A stretch of 9,522 nucleotides of DNA, taken from NCBI GenBank assembly GCA_021739805.1, contig JAIPBB010000212.1, positions 1 to 9,522 on the forward strand, written 5' to 3'. Below are positions 173 through 8,921 of this stretch, piece by piece (position 1 is the stretch's first letter; every line of letters starts with the position of its first letter). The position numbers were made by a program, and so were the translations under genes. The notes under the pieces are model-generated. The model worked only from the letters and a program-made list of their open reading frames with translations, did not search any database and was not told the origin of the DNA. Source of the DNA: Saprospiraceae bacterium. GTDB lineage: Bacteria > Bacteroidota > Bacteroidia > Bacteroidales > JAIPBB01.

Positions 173-3100
173 ATGGGTAAACAATACTTTCTATATGTTT
201 TTTTTATTCTTTGTTTGAATATTTCAGTAAAATCTCATAACAAAGACACTCTTCACTCGGCCAAACTTGAGTTTATTGAAAATAAAGGACAATGGAACAA
301 TAACGTACTCTACCAAGCGAACTTATCTGGTGGAACAATATTCCTGGAGAAAAATTGCTTTACATTTAGTTTTGAAGACCCAAATGATTTACTACATTTA
401 ATGGAACATAAATTCCCCGGACCAAATAGTAAAGAAAGAGAACCACTTGATACCATAATGTATTTTCATGCATATAAGGTTAATTTTGAAAACAGCAATG
501 AAAATGTTGAGGTTTTGGCAAAATATGCTGCTTCCGATTATAATAATTATTTTATGGGCAAGGATAGAAGCAAATGGAAATCGTTTGTTAAAAAATACAA
601 AGAGGTTTATTATAAGGATATTTGGGAAAATATTGACTTAAAAGTTTATGATGAACATGCTTATTTAAAGTACGATTTGGTCGTTCATCCGGGAGCATCG
701 CCTAAAGATATTGTTCTAAATTATGAAGGAGTTGAAGATTTAAGCCTTAACAATAGAAATTTAATTGTTAAAACTTCCGTAAATAAAATAATTGAAATGG
801 CTCCTTATTGCTACCAGATAATAAATAATGAAGAAAAAGAAGTTGAATGTAGATTTAAAATTAAAGACAACAAAGTTGTTTTCAAATTTCCAAAAGCTTA
901 TAATAAAAATTATGATTTAATAATTGACCCTGTTTTAGTTTTTTCTTCTTATTCAGGTTCTACTGTTGATAACTGGGGATATACTGCAACCTATGATGAC
1001 TCTGGATATGTGTATGCGGGAGGTAATATTAGAGACTTAACAGGCCATTATCCTACAACTCCCGGAGCTTATCAACTAACATTTGCAGGAGGTGCTACTG
1101 ATATTGCAATAACAAAATATGATACAAATGGTCAGTCTTTAATTTATTCAACTTATTTAGGTGGTAATGGCGCTGAAATTCCTCACAGCTTAATTGTTAA
1201 TAATAATAACGAACTTTATATTCTTGGAACATCTAGTTCAACTAATTTTCCTACAACACCAAATGCATATGATACGACATTTAATGGAGGAACTAGCTTT
1301 ACGATGACTGGTATTGTTGATTTTTCAATTGGTTCTGATATTGTTATTTCAAGACTTTCGAGTAATGGTGCTAGTCTATTGTCATCAACATATTATGGAG
1401 GAAACGGCAACGATGGTTTAAATATTAATACTAATCTGCGATTTAATTATGCTGATGAAGCCAGGGGAGAAATAATGTTTGATAATAACAATAATATTTA
1501 TGTAATAAGTAGCACTTATTCAACGAACTTTCCGATTTCCTCAGGTGCTTTTCAATCAACTTATGGTGGTCAGCAGGATGCATGTATTTTCAAACTTGAC
1601 CAGAATCTTTCAACCCAAATATGGAGTTCTTATTTAGGTGGAAGCTCTGCAGATGCCGGTTATAGCATAGCTTTAGATAAAAATGACAATCTTTATGTAT
1701 CAGGGGGGACAACATCTTTGAATTTTCCGGTTACATCGGGAACTCTTCAACCAAATTATGGGGGAGGACGTGCTGATGGATTTATTTCACATATAAGTAA
1801 AAACGGAAATGCGTTGATTCGTTCAACATATTATGGGTCTGATAGATACGACCAGGTTTATTTCGTTAAACTTGATAAACCCGGAAATGTTTATGTATTA
1901 GGGCAATCAGCTGATACCAGCAATATGTTTTTATTTAATTCAACTTGGTTTACAACCGGAGGTGGTCAATTTATTAGTAAATTGAGTAAGCAATTAAACC
2001 AGGTTATTTGGTCAACTAAATGGGGAACAAATGATGACTATCCTGATGTTTCTCCAACTGCTTTTATGGTTGATCTATGCAATTCTATTTATTTATCAGC
2101 ATGGGGAGGTTATACTGATATTGGTTCAGGAGGAGTTACAACAGGTTTACCAATAACTTCAAATGCCTTTCAAACAACAACTGATGGAAGTGATTATTAT
2201 TTCATGGTAATAAATGATAACGCATCATATTTGGTTTATGCAACTTTTTTTGGCGGCTCTTTATCTACAGAACATGTTGATGGTGGAACAAGTCGTTTTG
2301 ATAAAAAGGGTAGAATTTATCAATCAGTTTGTGCAGGTTGCGGAGGTCATAGCGATTTCCCAACTACAACACCTGTCTGGAGTAATACTAATAATTCATT
2401 TAATTGCAATAATGCAGTTATTAAATTTGATTTTAAATTGCCTGTACTTATAGCTGATTTTAGCAGTGATACTGTGAAATGTGCACCTGACCCTGTTCAT
2501 TTTACCAACAAATCATATATGACAGACAGTTCAGGATTTCATTGTTATTGGAATTTTGGAAATGGACAGACATCCACACAGGTTAATCCAATTCATTCTT
2601 ATACACAATCAGGAGTTTACACAGTTACACTTATTGTATCAGACACCGGAGCTTGCAATTTTGCTGATACAATTTCAAAGCAGCTTGTTGTTTTATCCGG
2701 TTCTAAGTATCGCATTGCAGATAAACATATTTGCAAAGGAAATTTTACACAAATTGGACTACTCCCAACTTCAGACCCAAGTTTAACTTACAATTGGTCT
2801 CCCGGATTTACTTTAAGCAATACTCATATTCCTAATCCAATTGCTTCTCCGTTAAGCACAACAGATTATACATTGTATATGTCAAATGGAGTTTGCACTG
2901 ATACAATACTTCAAAAAGTAATAGTTTACGATTTAAAAGTTGATGCCGGAAATGATACAACACTTTGTGTTGGAAATTTGTTGTTAACAGCTCACACTTA
3001 TGATGATACTGTGATGTTTCATTGGTCGGATAATTTAAATTTTACAAATATATTAAACACATCTTTAAACGATAGTAATGCACTGATTTCAATTACTTCT

Positions 3101-4171
3101 CCAAAAATGTTCTATGTGAAACTTTATAATAATTATGGATGCGAGGCAATCGACAGTGTTTATGTGGACTTTAGAATATATTTTTCTGCACCTACTATTC
3201 AAATGCCAAAATGCAATGGAGATGCAAATGGTCAGATTACAATTCATCCATTAGGAGGTGCTGCACCATATCAATACCTATGGAGTAATAGTTTGACTAC
3301 TCAAACCATTACAGGATTGGCTGCCGGAACATATACAGTGACGGTTTATGATGCAGATTCTTGTTTTTCAGAAACAACAGTTATTCTTGGAGAACCGGCA
3401 ATTCTTTCTTCAAATATGTCAAAAACAAATGCACCTTGCCATGATGTATGTATTGGAGAAGCAAATACCAACACTTCTGGTGGGACTATGCAATATTCTT
3501 ACAATTGGAGTAATGGTCAAACCACCAATCCGGCAACAAATTTATGTGATGGAATTTATTTTGTAACTATCACTGATGCAAACCAATGTGTAACTTACGA
3601 TACTGTCGAAATTGTTGACCTTTCTATTGGAATTACAGTTGAAACAACAATGGATGGAAAACTAATTGATTTTGATACAATTTATCAGGGACAAAGCATT
3701 CAATTAAGGACAACCTATTTGGGTCCAACCTATTCATATACCTGGACTCCTCCAGAAGGACTTAGTAACCCAAATATTTACAATCCTTTAGCCTCTCCTA
3801 ATGTAACTACAACTTATTATGTTTTGGTTGAAGATCAGTATGGATGTCAGTATATGGATTCGGTAACCATTTTTGTGATTGATGTTTATTGTGATAAACC
3901 TTATATTTACTTGCCAAATGCATTCACACCCGATGGTGACCATATTAATGATGTGCTGTATTTAAGAAGTAATATGATTTATGATTTTACTTTACAAATA
4001 TTTAACCGTTGGGGGGAACTTGTATTTGAAACGACTGACATTAATAAAGGATGGGATGGAACATATAAAGGTGAAGATTGTAATCCCGGAGTTTTTGCTT
4101 ATCAACTTAATGTTGTATGTCATAATAAGCAAATATTTAAGGATAAAGGAAATATTACTTTAATCAGGTAG
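173..4171 (+). CDS. Secreted multidomain adhesin-like protein with T9SS type B (gliding-motility) C-terminal sorting domain
   Basis: This is a large cell-surface protein exported by the type IX secretion system. A signal peptide (about residues 1-21) is followed by an N-terminal domain opening with FIENKGQWNNNVLYQANL (from 34), of the kind now called DUF7948 and usually found before SBBP repeats. Residues 260-755 hold beta-propeller-like SBBP repeats with recurring STYLGG and NFPTT motifs, ending in a CAGCGG/SDFPTT segment. Next come a PKD domain (about 761-841, with YWNFGNG and HSYTQSGVYTVTL), an Ig-like module (about 842-925), a less clear region, two SprB-type repeats (about 1006-1077 and 1078-1148, each with WSN and GTYTVTV/GIYFVTI-like motifs) and a second Ig-like module (about 1156-1236). 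The last 90 residues are the type B sorting domain: LPNAFTPDGDHIND (1247-1260), NRWGELVFE (1278-1286), GWDG and PGVFAY. The family suggests adhesion or surface scaffolding; no enzymatic domain is visible and the ligand is unknown. The PorP/SprF partner follows 18 nt later. Confidence 0.93.
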   Translation: MGKQYFLYVFFILCLNISVKSHNKDTLHSAKLEFIENKGQWNNNVLYQANLSGGTIFLEKNCFTFSFEDPNDLLHLMEHKFPGPNSKEREPLDTIMYFHAYKVNFENSNENVEVLAKYAASDYNNYFMGKDRSKWKSFVKKYKEVYYKDIWENIDLKVYDEHAYLKYDLVVHPGASPKDIVLNYEGVEDLSLNNRNLIVKTSVNKIIEMAPYCYQIINNEEKEVECRFKIKDNKVVFKFPKAYNKNYDLIIDPVLVFSSYSGSTVDNWGYTATYDDSGYVYAGGNIRDLTGHYPTTPGAYQLTFAGGATDIAITKYDTNGQSLIYSTYLGGNGAEIPHSLIVNNNNELYILGTSSSTNFPTTPNAYDTTFNGGTSFTMTGIVDFSIGSDIVISRLSSNGASLLSSTYYGGNGNDGLNINTNLRFNYADEARGEIMFDNNNNIYVISSTYSTNFPISSGAFQSTYGGQQDACIFKLDQNLSTQIWSSYLGGSSADAGYSIALDKNDNLYVSGGTTSLNFPVTSGTLQPNYGGGRADGFISHISKNGNALIRSTYYGSDRYDQVYFVKLDKPGNVYVLGQSADTSNMFLFNSTWFTTGGGQFISKLSKQLNQVIWSTKWGTNDDYPDVSPTAFMVDLCNSIYLSAWGGYTDIGSGGVTTGLPITSNAFQTTTDGSDYYFMVINDNASYLVYATFFGGSLSTEHVDGGTSRFDKKGRIYQSVCAGCGGHSDFPTTTPVWSNTNNSFNCNNAVIKFDFKLPVLIADFSSDTVKCAPDPVHFTNKSYMTDSSGFHCYWNFGNGQTSTQVNPIHSYTQSGVYTVTLIVSDTGACNFADTISKQLVVLSGSKYRIADKHICKGNFTQIGLLPTSDPSLTYNWSPGFTLSNTHIPNPIASPLSTTDYTLYMSNGVCTDTILQKVIVYDLKVDAGNDTTLCVGNLLLTAHTYDDTVMFHWSDNLNFTNILNTSLNDSNALISITSPKMFYVKLYNNYGCEAIDSVYVDFRIYFSAPTIQMPKCNGDANGQITIHPLGGAAPYQYLWSNSLTTQTITGLAAGTYTVTVYDADSCFSETTVILGEPAILSSNMSKTNAPCHDVCIGEANTNTSGGTMQYSYNWSNGQTTNPATNLCDGIYFVTITDANQCVTYDTVEIVDLSIGITVETTMDGKLIDFDTIYQGQSIQLRTTYLGPTYSYTWTPPEGLSNPNIYNPLASPNVTTTYYVLVEDQYGCQYMDSVTIFVIDVYCDKPYIYLPNAFTPDGDHINDVLYLRSNMIYDFTLQIFNRWGELVFETTDINKGWDGTYKGEDCNPGVFAYQLNVVCHNKQIFKDKGNITLIR

Positions 4172-4189: not shown

Positions 4190-5218
4190 ATGATGGAAAA
4201 AATTAAAAGATATTTTTTTATTATTTGTTTATGTTTTTTTTGTGTGGGGTTTACTTTCGCACAAGATATACACTTTTCCCAATTTTCAACATCACCATTA
4301 AATTTAAATCCTGCACAAACTGGTTTCTTCCAGGCAACTCATCGTTTTATACTAAATAACAAAAGCCAGTGGCGATCAGTAACAGTTCCTTATAGCACTA
4401 TTTCAGCTTCATTTGACATGCCTTTATTAAAAAGGAAATTCAAAGGTGATATGTTTGGAATTGGAGTGGTTTTCAATAGTGATAAAGCAGGCGATTCTGA
4501 ATTTGGTACAACACAGGCAAACCTTTCATTTTCTTATTTAAAGTCGTTAAATCAACGCAATAACCATTTTATTTCCTTTGGTTTACAAGGAGGAATTGGT
4601 CAACGAACTATCAACTATGATGATTTGTTTTTTGATAGCCAGTATAACGGAAATAATTACGACCCAAACTTATTTAACGGCGAGAATTTTACGGTACAAG
4701 ATTTTATTTTCAATGATATTGGATCTGGTGTTCATTGGTTTTATCAAAAGAACAGAAATTTAAATTTTAGTGCAGGATTAGCTGTATTTCATATTAATAG
4801 ACCAAAAATTTCATTATTAAATGATGGTAAAATCAGGCTTAATGAAAAATATATGTTTTATGGTAACAGTCAATTTGAAGTAAGTGATAAAGTTGACCTT
4901 ATGCCGGGATTCCTATTTGCATCGCAGGGAAAATATAAAGAACTAATTATTGGGTCAAATATTAAGTTTGAGCGTAACTCTAATCCCAAAAAATATACAG
5001 CAATGAATTTTGGAGTATATACCCGAACAAAAGATGCTGTTATTTTAATTATTGGAATGGAGTATAAAAGGATTTCTTATAATCTTAGTTATGATATTAA
5101 TTATTCGAAGCTTAAAACTTCCAGTAATTCAATGGGTGGATTGGAAATTTCAATTAATTATTTAATAAATAAATCAAAGACAGCTAAGATTAAAGCTGTT
5201 CCTTGTCCGATTTTTTAG
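4190..5218 (+). CDS. PorP/SprF family type IX secretion outer-membrane protein
   Basis: This is a PorP/SprF-family outer-membrane beta-barrel of 342 aa, a typical length. A signal peptide ends at about GFTFAQ, and the mature protein opens with the family signature DIHFSQFSTSPLNLNPAQTG. The middle has alternating beta-strand character with family-like segments such as FGIGVVFNSDKAGDSEFGTT and ISFGLQGGIGQRTINYDDL, and the C-terminus ends in VPCPIF, resembling the CPRF-type ending of the family. Members close to SprF are needed to export or anchor the type B cargo encoded beside them, as SprF is for SprB in Flavobacterium johnsoniae. Here the cargo gene is immediately upstream, so this protein is inferred to be its dedicated partner. 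It may use the ATG at 4193. The paralogue cannot be assigned as PorP or SprF, so no symbol is given. Confidence 0.93.
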   Translation: MMEKIKRYFFIICLCFFCVGFTFAQDIHFSQFSTSPLNLNPAQTGFFQATHRFILNNKSQWRSVTVPYSTISASFDMPLLKRKFKGDMFGIGVVFNSDKAGDSEFGTTQANLSFSYLKSLNQRNNHFISFGLQGGIGQRTINYDDLFFDSQYNGNNYDPNLFNGENFTVQDFIFNDIGSGVHWFYQKNRNLNFSAGLAVFHINRPKISLLNDGKIRLNEKYMFYGNSQFEVSDKVDLMPGFLFASQGKYKELIIGSNIKFERNSNPKKYTAMNFGVYTRTKDAVILIIGMEYKRISYNLSYDINYSKLKTSSNSMGGLEISINYLINKSKTAKIKAVPCPIF

Positions 5219-5264
5219 GTGTTGTGATGATATTGGTTTGGGAATTGGAAATTAGAAATTAGTA

Positions 5265-5448
5265 GTTAAGTAGTTAGGTGGTTAAGTGGTTAAGTAGTTA
5301 AGTGGTTAAGTGGTTAAGTAGTTAAGTGGTTAAGTGGTTAAGTAGTTAAGTGGTTAAGTAGTTAAGTGGTTAAGTGGTTGAGTGGTTAAGTGGTTAAGTG
5401 GTTAAGTGGTTAAGTAGTTAAGTGGTTAAGTGGTTGAGTGGTTAAGTA
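5265..5448 (+). repeat. Octamer array, 23 copies of GTTAAGTR
   Basis: There are exactly 23 contiguous 8-bp units (184 bp). Most are GTTAAGTG; units 1, 4, 7, 10, 12, 19 and 23 are GTTAAGTA; units 15 and 22 are GTTGAGTG; unit 2 is GTTAGGTG. No insertion or deletion breaks the register. The near-identity of units implies recent slippage or recombination, so copy number may vary between strains, or be misassembled. Confidence 0.95.
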
Positions 5449-5476
5449 ATTAGTTATTAAGATGTTAAGATTGATA

Positions 5477-5546
5477 AACGAGAAACCAGTAACGAGTAAC
5501 GAGTAACGAGAAACGAGCAACGAGAAACGAGCAACGAGAAATGAAG
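5477..5546 (+). repeat. Heptamer array AACGAGN running into a start codon
   Basis: Nine 7-bp units (AACGAGA, AACCAGT, AACGAGT x2, AACGAGA, AACGAGC, AACGAGA, AACGAGC, AACGAGA) are followed by a tenth degenerate unit AATGAAG at 5540-5546 that contains the ATG of the OmpA-like gene. The array has no T except in the GAGT/CAGT units, so the leader would be purine-rich and largely unstructured. No Shine-Dalgarno is present. Confidence 0.92.
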
Positions 5547-7871
5547 TATAAAAACAACATAATAAATTCCCTACTGATAGTTTTTATGCTTTTTTCAGTT
5601 TCTTTAGCACAATCTCAAAAATATGAATCTTGTTCTAGTGTAGAAGAATGTGTTGGTCATGCTGAACAGTTCTTTGAAAATGGAGATTTTTATTCTGCTT
5701 CTGTTTTTTATTTCAATGCACTGCAATTTGATTCAACAAGAATCTCCATTGCCTATAAATACGCAGAAGCAAGCAGGCTATTTAATAATTATAAAGTTGC
5801 TTCAGATTGGTATCACTATGTGCTTGAATCTGATTCGGCTAGTGATTTTTCTTTAGTTAGATTTTGGTATGCAGCTATGTTGAAAAACTGTGGCGATTAT
5901 GATTCTGCAATATCAAACTTCAAAGCATTTACACAGACTTATTCAAAAACGGACTTCTATTCAAAAAAATCCCAGAAAGAAATTCAATCTTGTGAGTTTG
6001 CAATTAAATTGATGAAAGATACAGTTAATGTTAAAATAGAGCATCTTCCAACTTCGGTTAATTCACCTTACTCTGAATTTGGAGCAGTTCAATTAAATAG
6101 TAGTGTTTTATATTTTTCAGCTTTAAGGGCAATTGGTTCAATGGAATACGAATCATTTATTCCAAATGCCTTTTTGTCAAAAATTTATATTTCAAAAAAT
6201 ACAACGGCTGGATGGTCAAAAGGAAAAGAAATTGATAAAGTAATAAACAACAAAACTTCTCATAATGCTAATGTTGCATTTAATGATGCACATACAAAAA
6301 TGTATTTTACAAGATGTAGTTCGGATGAGAATTCACAAATGCAATGTGCAATTTACTTAAGCGTTAAAGAGGCAGGAGAATGGCAAAAACCTGTTAAACT
6401 TAAATCGAAAATTAATCTTGAGAATTATACTTCAACTCAACCTGCTGTTGCTAATATAGATGATTATGAAATACTATATTTTGTTTCCGACAGACCAAAT
6501 GGATATGGAGGAAATGATATTTGGTATTCTGTTTTAAAAGATGGTGTTTACAACGAACCGGTAAATCTTGGAAGTTTAATTAACACCCAGGGCAATGAAA
6601 TAACGCCATTCTACTACAATCATGGAAAGACTTTATATTTTAGCTCTGATTGGCATAACGGTCTTGGTGCTTATGATGTTTTTAAGTCAAAAGGTGGTCT
6701 GAATTCCTGGGAAATTCCTGTTAATTTAGGATTTCCGATTAATTCAAGCTGTAATGATATTTACTTTACAAAAAATGGAATTGATAAAGATGGATATTTT
6801 ACTTCCAATCGCCCAGGCTCTTATCATATAAAAGGCGAAACTTGTTGTAATGATATTTATTATTATGAGTGGGATGAAAAAAAACCGGAAATAGTTAAGA
6901 AAGTTGAAAAAGATACTGTCAAAATTGAAGATAAAGTAAAATTATTATTGCCATTAACATTATATTTTCATAATGATATTCCTGACCCAAAATCTACGAA
7001 TACTACCACAAACGAAAACTATAAAACAACTCTTGCAGATTATTTTCTATTAAAGGAAAAGTATGAGCAAGAATATTCGAAGGGTTTGAAAGGTGAAGAA
7101 AAGGAAAAGGCAGTTTTAGATATTAAGGATTTCTTTGATAATTATATTAGTAAAGGCTTTAGTGATCTGGAGAAATTTTCAGATTTATTATTAACTGACC
7201 TTGAAAAAGGAAGCGATGTAAGGATAAAAATTAAAGGCTATTGCAGCCCACTTAATTCAACTGAGTATAATTTGAATTTGGCTAAAAGAAGAATTGCCAG
7301 TTTGAAAAATTTTATTGCTCAATATGATGAAGGAATTTTTAAAAAATATTTAGACTATACTGCTGAAAACGGAGGAAAACTAACAATCTATGAAGATCCG
7401 ATTGGTGAAGCAAAAGCAAAGGCATTTGTTAGCGACAATCCTAATGATAAAAGAAATTCAATTTATAGCAGGGCTGCAGCTTTTGAAAGGAAAATTCAAA
7501 TTATTCTTTATACTTCAGGTGGTAATTTTGAAGATGATTCATTGTCAATGCAATTTCCCGAAATACAGTTTAACACCATGATTCATGATTTTGGAACTTT
7601 AAGCCAGAATAAAAAACTTGTCTTTAAGTTTCAATTTTCAAATGTTGGAAAAGCTGAGTTAACTTTGTTAAATGTCGAAACATCAAGTGATAATATTGTA
7701 ACCGACTGGTCGAAAGAACCAATTTTGCCCGGAGACGCTAACACAATTAATGTTTTGCTTGATACCGAAGGAATTCTCGGAGAGTTTGAAGAAAAAATTA
7801 TTATTAAATTAAATACTATTTCCGGCATCAAAGAGCTGATTGTTAAAGGGAAAGTTGTGAGTGGTGAGTAG
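5541..7871 (+). CDS. TPR / PD40 beta-propeller / OmpA-like envelope protein with DUF1573-like C-terminus
   Basis: This 776-aa exported protein probably sits in the periplasm or at the outer membrane. A signal peptide (cut near A23/Q24, no lipobox) leads into TPR-like helices (about 32-150, with EQFFENGDFYSASVFYFNAL and NCGDYDSAISNFKAF). A PD40/WD40-like propeller follows (about 175-440, with LYFSALR, ILYFVSDRPNGYGGNDIWY, LYFSSDWHNGLGAYDVF and GYFTSNRPGS). The OmpA-like region (about 470-665) opens with LPLTLYFHNDIPDP and contains IKGYCSPLNSTEYN (from 564) and LAKRRI. Residues 673-775 resemble DUF1573/ASH-like domains (PEIQF, HDFGTL, FQFSNVGKAELTLLNV, then an acidic/PG turn). TPR, propeller and OmpA order recalls PorE-type T9SS proteins that bind peptidoglycan, but no CRD domain is evident between propeller and OmpA region, and the Asp of the classical OmpA peptidoglycan motif is replaced. 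The start is set by the signal peptide. The ATG lies in the last heptad repeat, and the final codons and stop lie in another array. A role with the upstream cargo/PorP pair is inferred from context. Confidence 0.88.
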   Translation: MKYKNNIINSLLIVFMLFSVSLAQSQKYESCSSVEECVGHAEQFFENGDFYSASVFYFNALQFDSTRISIAYKYAEASRLFNNYKVASDWYHYVLESDSASDFSLVRFWYAAMLKNCGDYDSAISNFKAFTQTYSKTDFYSKKSQKEIQSCEFAIKLMKDTVNVKIEHLPTSVNSPYSEFGAVQLNSSVLYFSALRAIGSMEYESFIPNAFLSKIYISKNTTAGWSKGKEIDKVINNKTSHNANVAFNDAHTKMYFTRCSSDENSQMQCAIYLSVKEAGEWQKPVKLKSKINLENYTSTQPAVANIDDYEILYFVSDRPNGYGGNDIWYSVLKDGVYNEPVNLGSLINTQGNEITPFYYNHGKTLYFSSDWHNGLGAYDVFKSKGGLNSWEIPVNLGFPINSSCNDIYFTKNGIDKDGYFTSNRPGSYHIKGETCCNDIYYYEWDEKKPEIVKKVEKDTVKIEDKVKLLLPLTLYFHNDIPDPKSTNTTTNENYKTTLADYFLLKEKYEQEYSKGLKGEEKEKAVLDIKDFFDNYISKGFSDLEKFSDLLLTDLEKGSDVRIKIKGYCSPLNSTEYNLNLAKRRIASLKNFIAQYDEGIFKKYLDYTAENGGKLTIYEDPIGEAKAKAFVSDNPNDKRNSIYSRAAAFERKIQIILYTSGGNFEDDSLSMQFPEIQFNTMIHDFGTLSQNKKLVFKFQFSNVGKAELTLLNVETSSDNIVTDWSKEPILPGDANTINVLLDTEGILGEFEEKIIIKLNTISGIKELIVKGKVVSGE

Positions 7872-7907
7872 AGAGTAGAGAGTAGTGAGTAATGAGTATT
7901 GAGTTAT
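7859..7907 (+). repeat. Heptamer array GAGTANN spanning a stop codon
   Basis: Seven direct 7-bp units (GAGTGGT, GAGTAGA x2, GAGTAGT, GAGTAAT, GAGTATT, GAGTTAT) begin inside the last codons of the OmpA-like gene. They encode most of its terminal Ser-Gly-Glu and include the TAG at 7869-7871. Read in the same phase, the array before that gene is GAGTAAC/GAGAAAC/GAGCAAC, so both belong to one heptamer family in the same orientation. Confidence 0.88.
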
Positions 7908-7985: not shown

Positions 7986-8921
7986 ATGAAATCTACTGTA
8001 CATACAGTATTATTTTTATTGCTGGTGATACCATTGGTGACGCAATCTCAAAACTTAGAACTCTATTGCCTAAGCTTAATTCAGAAGAGCGACTCTACAG
8101 AAAATGGGTTTGTAATTTTCACAGACAATTATTCACAGGATAATTATCCAGATTCATTAGCAATTTATGACAAGTATTTGGCAGACATTGAAGCTAATAA
8201 GAATGGCTATTATGAATTAAGCTTAGACTATCGAATTAGGTTTCTTGAAAACATGAATATCTCTAAAAATGCAATTGTATTTATCTATAATTTTATTTTG
8301 GACACAACATTTACCTATAATGTAAATGAACTTCATCTTGTAGCTCAGTTTGCTCCAAATCATTCATATAATAGTCAATATGACTATGTAGTTGGATTTA
8401 GTATAGCAGAGTTGCCACTCAAGGAATTGGGGGATAATTATTCATACACTCTCATTTACATTGGGGAAAGTAGCTCTTTTCATGAAGGGAATATTCAACC
8501 TTTGCTCTGGGAAAAAATTGAAAGTCAGCTTTTCCCAGCAGACACAAATGGTATTGAAAATGCACATTGGTACAAGCAATACACATCTGGCGAATCATAT
8601 ATTTGCTCTTATAATGGCTTCGACTACTTTCTTCAAAACTTAATTTATAAAGGAAGAATATCAGCAAGACATCTCAATGTTGTTGATTCAACTGGTATAA
8701 CTATTTATAACAAGGTCTATTATGATACAGAACTCACGCCACTTGTTCCACTTACAGAAATAGTAGATAATTATTTCTTTGCTCAATGGACTGGTGAAAT
8801 ATTTAAAAATAAACCGCCCATAATTTTTGGATTTTGTGACGCTCCTTATGGTGGTTCTATAATTAACTTTGTGAGCCTATCTGAACCTTCTATTTATATC
8901 CGATGCTACAATGAAAACTAA
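7986..8921 (+). CDS. Secreted or periplasmic protein of unknown function
   Basis: I do not recognise this 311-aa protein. It starts with a clear signal peptide (positive MKSTVH, hydrophobic LFLLLVIPLV, likely cleavage near TQSQ at 19-22), so it leaves the cytoplasm; no lipobox is present and no later membrane segment is obvious. The mature part is rich in Tyr, Asn and Ser with alternating hydrophobic stretches (HLVAQFAPNHSYNSQYDYVV, YSYTLIYIGESSS, PPIIFGFCDAPYGGSIINF), suggesting a mostly beta or mixed fold. No T9SS sorting domain, PKD, TPR or OmpA motif is seen at either end. The open frame, the signal peptide and its position downstream on the same strand support a real gene. No Shine-Dalgarno precedes the ATG. 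It may be an accessory to the upstream envelope cassette, or simply an orphan gene beside repeat DNA. Confidence 0.75.
   Translation: MKSTVHTVLFLLLVIPLVTQSQNLELYCLSLIQKSDSTENGFVIFTDNYSQDNYPDSLAIYDKYLADIEANKNGYYELSLDYRIRFLENMNISKNAIVFIYNFILDTTFTYNVNELHLVAQFAPNHSYNSQYDYVVGFSIAELPLKELGDNYSYTLIYIGESSSFHEGNIQPLLWEKIESQLFPADTNGIENAHWYKQYTSGESYICSYNGFDYFLQNLIYKGRISARHLNVVDSTGITIYNKVYYDTELTPLVPLTEIVDNYFFAQWTGEIFKNKPPIIFGFCDAPYGGSIINFVSLSEPSIYIRCYNEN

Follow-up and report, generated by a model that had tools for sequence, protein, structure and literature searches.

A compound tract of heptad and octad repeats between porP/sprF and a PorE-like gene in a Saprospiraceae bacterium, and its counterparts in related genomes

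Gene context and make-up of the tract

The stretch of DNA analysed here (the window, 9,522 nucleotides of a Saprospiraceae bacterium) carries a gene for a large protein with DUF7948, SBBP, PKD, SprB and CHU_C secretion domains (173-4171), a plus-strand gene for a PorP/SprF type IX secretion membrane protein (4190-5218; PF11751, E 5.8e-40) and a plus-strand gene with PD40 and DUF1573 domains (5541-7871; PF07676, PF07610 and PF22544), which we take to be PorE-like. Further downstream, a 311-aa open frame (7986-8921) gave no Pfam match at E 0.001. The 322 bp gap between porP/sprF on the left and the PorE-like gene on the right (5219-5540) is filled by a tandem array, which begins about 20 bp 3' of the stop codon of the PorP/SprF gene. 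The whole window gave no Rfam match at gathering scores and no promoter was found in a scan of 5100-5700; the only terminator-like site that the scan gave in this interval is on the minus strand (5180-5199) and does not lie in the array.

Read on the plus strand, the tract consists of a left heptad block of about three imperfect copies (GGAAATT, AGAAATT; 5238-5260), an octad block made up of AAGTAGTT, AAGTGGTT, two copies of GAGTGGTT and one of AGGTGGTT (5261-5447), a degenerate stretch that joins the octads to the right heptads and over which the lag-8 run fades, at 5471, in the lag profile (5448-5476), and a right heptad block of GTAACGA, GAAACGA and GCAACGA (5477-5544). TRF called period 8 at 5261-5447 (23.4 copies, 90% matches, score 304) and period 7 at 5476-5541 (9.4 copies; period 14 was also called, at 5477-5541), together with weak period-7 rows at 5238-5260 (score 32) and 5243-5262 (score 33). 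With a run threshold of score 14, the lag scan gave a left lag-7 run at 5238-5268, a lag-8 run at 5261-5471 and a lag-14 run at 5477-5544. The consensus units were AAGTRGTT for the octads (23 copies) and GNAACGA for the right heptads (about nine), with about three heptads on the left. Counted from 5268, there were 22 octads (13 AAGTGGTT, six AAGTAGTT, two GAGTGGTT and one AGGTGGTT), a copy number that comes from one contig and could be off. There was a tendency for the unit types to recur every three units (24 bp; P=0.017 without correction for the eight lags tried).

The succession of periods 7, 8 and 7 that a preliminary description of this DNA had reported is therefore real, the TRF run and the lag profiles being in agreement. 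Its statement that the blocks follow one another without a gap holds on the left, where the runs overlap, but not on the right, where five bases separate them. Left heptads are present as described, although the block is short and imperfect, and AGTAGTT (5261-5267), which had been counted as a heptad, reads equally well as a cut-off first copy of the octad. At the other end GATAAACG, given as an octad, is not clearly one because the lag-8 run stops at 5471. Tandem 7-nt units above chance thus occur in the left and right blocks, but the unit length is not 7 throughout, since the main block has period 8 (23.4 copies).

The right heptads extend into the start codon of the PorE-like gene (5541). 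A second heptad array on the plus strand (GTGGTGA, GTAGAGA, GTAGTGA, GTAATGA and GTATTGA; 7853-7904, TRF score 62) starts within the coding end of the same gene and supplies its last residues and stop codon.

Heptad and octad arrays in related genomes

Heptad and octad arrays are carried in many gaps by several genomes of this part of the Bacteroidota. The survey covered 1180 gaps (237 kb) in 221 records (2.64 Mb), the window counted in, with a gene defined as an ORF of at least 100 aa; L081-L083 were left out, being covered by L142. At one threshold these gaps held 62 period-7 and 25 period-8 arrays (two and one of them, respectively, in the window), a density that is not representative because the deeply sampled genomes (G001-G005 and G381) were picked for an orthologue or an octad word and their stretches came from low-numbered contigs. 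Dinucleotide shuffles of the gaps gave 0.2 period-7 and 0.0 period-8 arrays (mean of five). The comparison of 62 with 0.2 agrees, for the Bacteroidota sampled, with the preliminary description, in which short heptanucleotide repeats are said to be frequent in the gaps between genes. In the same gaps there were 21 arrays of period 14, 10 of period 16, 23 of period 21 and eight of period 22, and the remaining periods from 2 to 24 were represented by at most four arrays each, the excess being limited to 7, 8 and their multiples, plus some 22. The period-22 arrays (eight, or 11 in the first survey) mostly showed no split into 7+7+8 by eye. Long intergenic arrays of 21-mers were seen at L005 1498-2076, L119 1535-1789 and L052 209-387, and a genome from the random class sample carried a period-12 array of ATTAACYACCTA-like units (L127 17615-17762) with a composition near that of the window octad.

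The balance between the two periods varied between genomes. The ratio of heptad to octad arrays was 31:0 in G001, 4:10 in G004 and 8:9 in G381. In the lag profiles of the gaps, G003 had no peak at either 7 or 8 and G381 peaked at both; G004 peaked at 8, with lesser peaks at 16, 24 and 7, and the peaks of G001 and G002 were at 7, 14, 21 and 28. Lag 8 exceeded lag 7 in 99.9% of bootstrap resamples in G004 and in 0% in G001, a preference seen in few deeply sampled genomes that had been chosen for their arrays or for the orthologue. Fisher's test on the period counts of G001 and G004 gave 3e-7, which is optimistic because words are common to the arrays of one genome.

Periods 7 and 8 recurred across species, and heptad words were hardly common to genomes and were reused within one. 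Between genomes, 0.2% of heptad units were identical (0.2% when shuffled) and 4.9% differed by one mismatch (3.5% when shuffled); within a genome, 4.1% were identical compared with 0.4%. Dispersal of a word within one genome was seen in G001 and G004. Three copies of AGTCAWTR matched 538 times in G001, on both strands and at no fewer than 37 sites among the first 100 matches listed, and had no match in nine other genomes, those of the same family included; the reversed control matched 0 times in G001, once in G002 and 16 times in G004. The word GGATGTT had 56 matches in G001 and none in nine other genomes, and G001 thus has at least two word families. In G004, three copies of AATRTGNT gave 81 matches (control, one) at 33 sites. 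This octad word was common to five of 149 class genomes (control, one of 149), with 26 matches in G150, and a similar octad occurred in a stretch of G404. The identical variable positions of AATRTGNT at many sites in both G004 and G150 suggest exchange or a shared constraint. The octad word of the window was found in one of 395 class genomes (reversed control, five of 395), in one of 11 genomes in the family of G381 and in none of six in that of G001, and its heptad word in none of 119 genomes (reversed control, four). The two heptad arrays of the window contig had no exact 7-mer in common, and within its own genome the words of the window were observed in just two gaps.

A longer mobile carrier of the words was considered and rejected. 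Masked flanks of 21 AGTCAWT sites in G001 matched in four of 210 pairs, the matches being short and probably array remnants, and the unmasked comparison gave 93 match rows, of which the 15 listed resembled array against array.

Origin of the change in period

From the GTDB species genomes, the best 80 of 211 loci at which the PorE-like gene has a relative were taken, and 18 of them were read by eye. The end of porP lay next to the relative in 16 of the 18 (it was not visible in L022 and L028). No array was present in 14, often with few bases between the genes, and the gaps of the other four held unrelated arrays: 12 copies of AAGTAAC in L002, AGTCAAT-like heptads in L001 (below the script threshold but seen by TRF), octads TTAATATG followed by CAATGATA in L009, and 21-mers with ATTTGAAR octads in L028. 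By script, an array of the 7/8 family was found in four of 76 usable gaps (L002, L009, L028 and L048), 27 were shorter than 60 bp and the 45 others had none. Since the gaps of relatives hold unrelated units, arrays seem to have come separately into the orthologous gap. Independent arrival had been named beforehand as the result that would count against a single evolving tract, and the finding of unrelated arrays or none goes part of the way towards it. Among viral contigs, none of the 17 stretches that matched a pattern encoded a relative of the PorE-like gene.

With moderate confidence, we interpret the tract as a compound, satellite-like intergenic array, grown by slippage and probably neutral, in which heptad and octad words of the genome stand side by side. 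Each block would have been seeded in the non-coding gap and would have grown by polymerase slippage of single units or small blocks of units, with point changes accumulating in the units afterwards, and the 7/8/7 pattern would come mainly from neighbouring positions being taken by different words out of the species' stock. The arrays would need no function and may persist because they are located between genes; their growth was probably mostly neutral. Slippage alone does not explain the spread of one word to many gaps. For one word to recur at dozens of sites that have no flanks in common, there must be a spreading step, and the occurrence of AATRTGNT in several class genomes also speaks against the explanation, as does the scarcity of heptads in divergent gaps.

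More tentatively, a genome as a whole may keep to a repeat period, measured out at 7 or 8 nt by a ruler that acts in trans (for example, a replication or repair enzyme), with the sequence free to vary; some lineages would then have changed their period from 7 to 8, and the window tract, as part of a genome with both types like G381, would record the shift. If related genomes do differ in this way, a comparison of their genes for replication and repair may point to the ruler, and the junctions to study are those within mixed tracts.

According to the preliminary description, one base was inserted into a single heptad tract, whose lengthened unit then expanded in place, giving one evolving tract rather than three separate repeats. 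The data support this reading in part, but as the explanation of the window tract we consider it unlikely, although the step itself has parallels. A true intermediate is present at L156 2649-2694, where a one-base insertion has been copied: heptads of the TTGAGTG type carry +T twice, giving a 15-bp unit. Runs of the two periods abut at L012 11663-11709 and L032 8457-8565, where the consensus units are one mismatch apart after one deletion, and are separated by 6 bp in L010. Heptads and octads lay within 10 bp of each other in five of the nine gaps with both periods (window included), compared with 1.2 expected by random placement (P=0.0013), and in three of seven when the window and L048 were left out; this also fits expansion in place. 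L048 is doubtful as a 7/8 case, its period 16 really being heptads plus GT (7+9). Gaps with both periods were, however, no commoner than chance (window excluded, eight observed and 6.7 expected, P=0.34), with none in G004 (1.3 expected) or G381 (1.5 expected); one case in G004 lay below the threshold (L179 16806-16865).

At the borders of the window tract, moreover, similarity between the units was ordinary and the flanking heptads were not like the octads beyond chance. After one deletion they were two to three mismatches away, and 41-83% of random pairs were as close. No 7-mer of the blocks at 5240-5260 and 5482-5544 was an octad minus a base; exact sharing of 7-mers after one deletion was also 0 for L012, L032 and L010. 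AGTAGTT does adjoin AAGTAGTT, and adding it (5261-5267) as a heptad brought the shared 7-mers to 25% (P=0.027), a circular result because AGTAGTT is itself octad sequence. In phase, AGAAATT equals AGTAGTT at five of seven positions (chance 0.033), which is weak. The heptads at 7853-7904 shared 18% of their 7-mers with the octads after one deletion (P=0.038), and GTGGTGA from this array is octad GTGGTTGA minus one T, a suggestive hint at a one-base step. As the borders are unlike and the 7853-7904 heptads share 7-mers with the octads, a one-base step is plausible in the history of the words of this genome, and not as an event visible at the tract borders. In the compound array favoured here, the octad word may accordingly have arisen when a single base was inserted into another heptad word that this genome carries (GTGGTGA to GTGGTTGA), and the adjoining heptads would not be its source.

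Other explanations and known repeats

As proposed for the TAACTGA repeats of Beggiatoaceae, the arrays could act on neighbouring genes as binding sites or regulatory RNA elements, but this is improbable. Their placement and reuse would suit such a role: among 103 arrays in codirectional gaps, a stop codon was at most 30 bp away in 49 and a start codon in 32, and words are reused within a genome. Octads were distributed over gap types as expected, and heptads were rarer in divergent gaps (13 of 116, with 27.9 expected by gap length) and commoner in convergent ones (P=0.003 when expectation follows gap length and 0.058 when it follows gap number), as would be seen if heptads were less well tolerated in promoter regions; placement is therefore not fully free. 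The gap also has a strong predicted RNA fold (z=-10 compared with dinucleotide shuffles), yet it is ordinary against permuted unit columns, 24% of which fold as well, and over 52 heptad and 14 octad arrays the mean fold z against column permutations was about +0.2. The folding is thus explained by periodicity, and RNA structure was rejected as a selected feature. Nor did heptads prefer a coding strand (38 G-rich and 37 C-rich of 78; for octads 17 and 8, P=0.11), and relatives have no array, or one of unrelated units, in the orthologous gap. A heptad array next to a gene under study may be noise of the species and carry no regulatory signal for that gene.

An assembly artefact that joined or collapsed separate arrays is very improbable; the tract is known from one contig and exceeds a typical short read, but its flanks are the end of porP and the PorE-like gene, neighbours in nearly all the loci read, its units vary internally and abutting 7/8 runs are present in other assemblies. 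Writing of the repeats by a reverse transcriptase from an RNA template, in the style of DRT10 or telomerase and with template length setting 7 or 8, is scarcely credible: the sharp unit length and species-specific words would fit, as would the template-dictated tandem repeats of DRT10 (9-nt in the Eco3 system, in the part of PMC12632851 available), but RVT_1 had no match in array-rich G001 or in G381 (both draft genomes) and one in G003, a genome without a 7/8 signal, six of 10 genomes had one, and G001 has more than one word family.

Heptad repeats are known, and the genome-level preference for 7 or 8 and the mixing of periods in one gap look new. No account of octad-dominated genomes or mixed 7/8 tracts was met in the literature searched, in which subscription journals were thinly covered and which included parts of PMC4060949 and PMC6749651. 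In the available part of MacGregor (2015; PMC4679880), heptamer repeats are reported from Beggiatoaceae, Cyanobacteria and five Bacteroidetes, with several heptamers in one gap, two Cyanothece strains differ by 7-nt indels, and a 2007 proposal is relayed according to which the polymerase contacts a stretch of 7 nt. The TAACTGA repeats described there resemble the present arrays in being intergenic heptads with long arrays in some Bacteroidetes, in multi-heptamer gaps, in neighbouring species with shorter repeat-free gaps and in 7-nt indels between strains; they differ in that the window words are others and that octads and a change of period are not described in that part of the paper. The unit TAACTGA does not occur in the window, the units of which are AAGTRGTT, GNAACGA and GTRGTGA-like. 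Among prokaryotic long simple sequence repeats (Mrazek et al. 2007, as relayed in parts of PMC4679880 and PMC4692102), heptanucleotides were the most abundant class in most genomes, and slippage with a polymerase-sized segment was proposed; both the class and the proposal are in line with the heptads seen here. The explanation offered for the preference for 7-base intergenic units is still a polymerase-contact proposal in the portions of the literature consulted.

DRT10 products (PMC12632851, in part) are similar in having short tandem units of defined length with a sequence free to vary between systems, and differ in being an immune cDNA product rather than chromosomal arrays, from an enzyme family that had no match in either G001 or G381. 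The G-rich heptamers of Xanthomonas and Nostoc (PMC4692102, in part) share with the present arrays a genome-specific word, variable positions and many intergenic sites on both strands; they are of G-quadruplex type, whereas the window octads have single or paired G only. Units of opposed sense were also seen within single gaps. At L142 7419-7546 (G381), AAGTAGTT octads lie at the left of the gap and inverted-sense octads (AACTAATC) at the right, before the next gene, and opposed heptads in a similar layout occur at L055 12146-12217 and L145 8338-8409.
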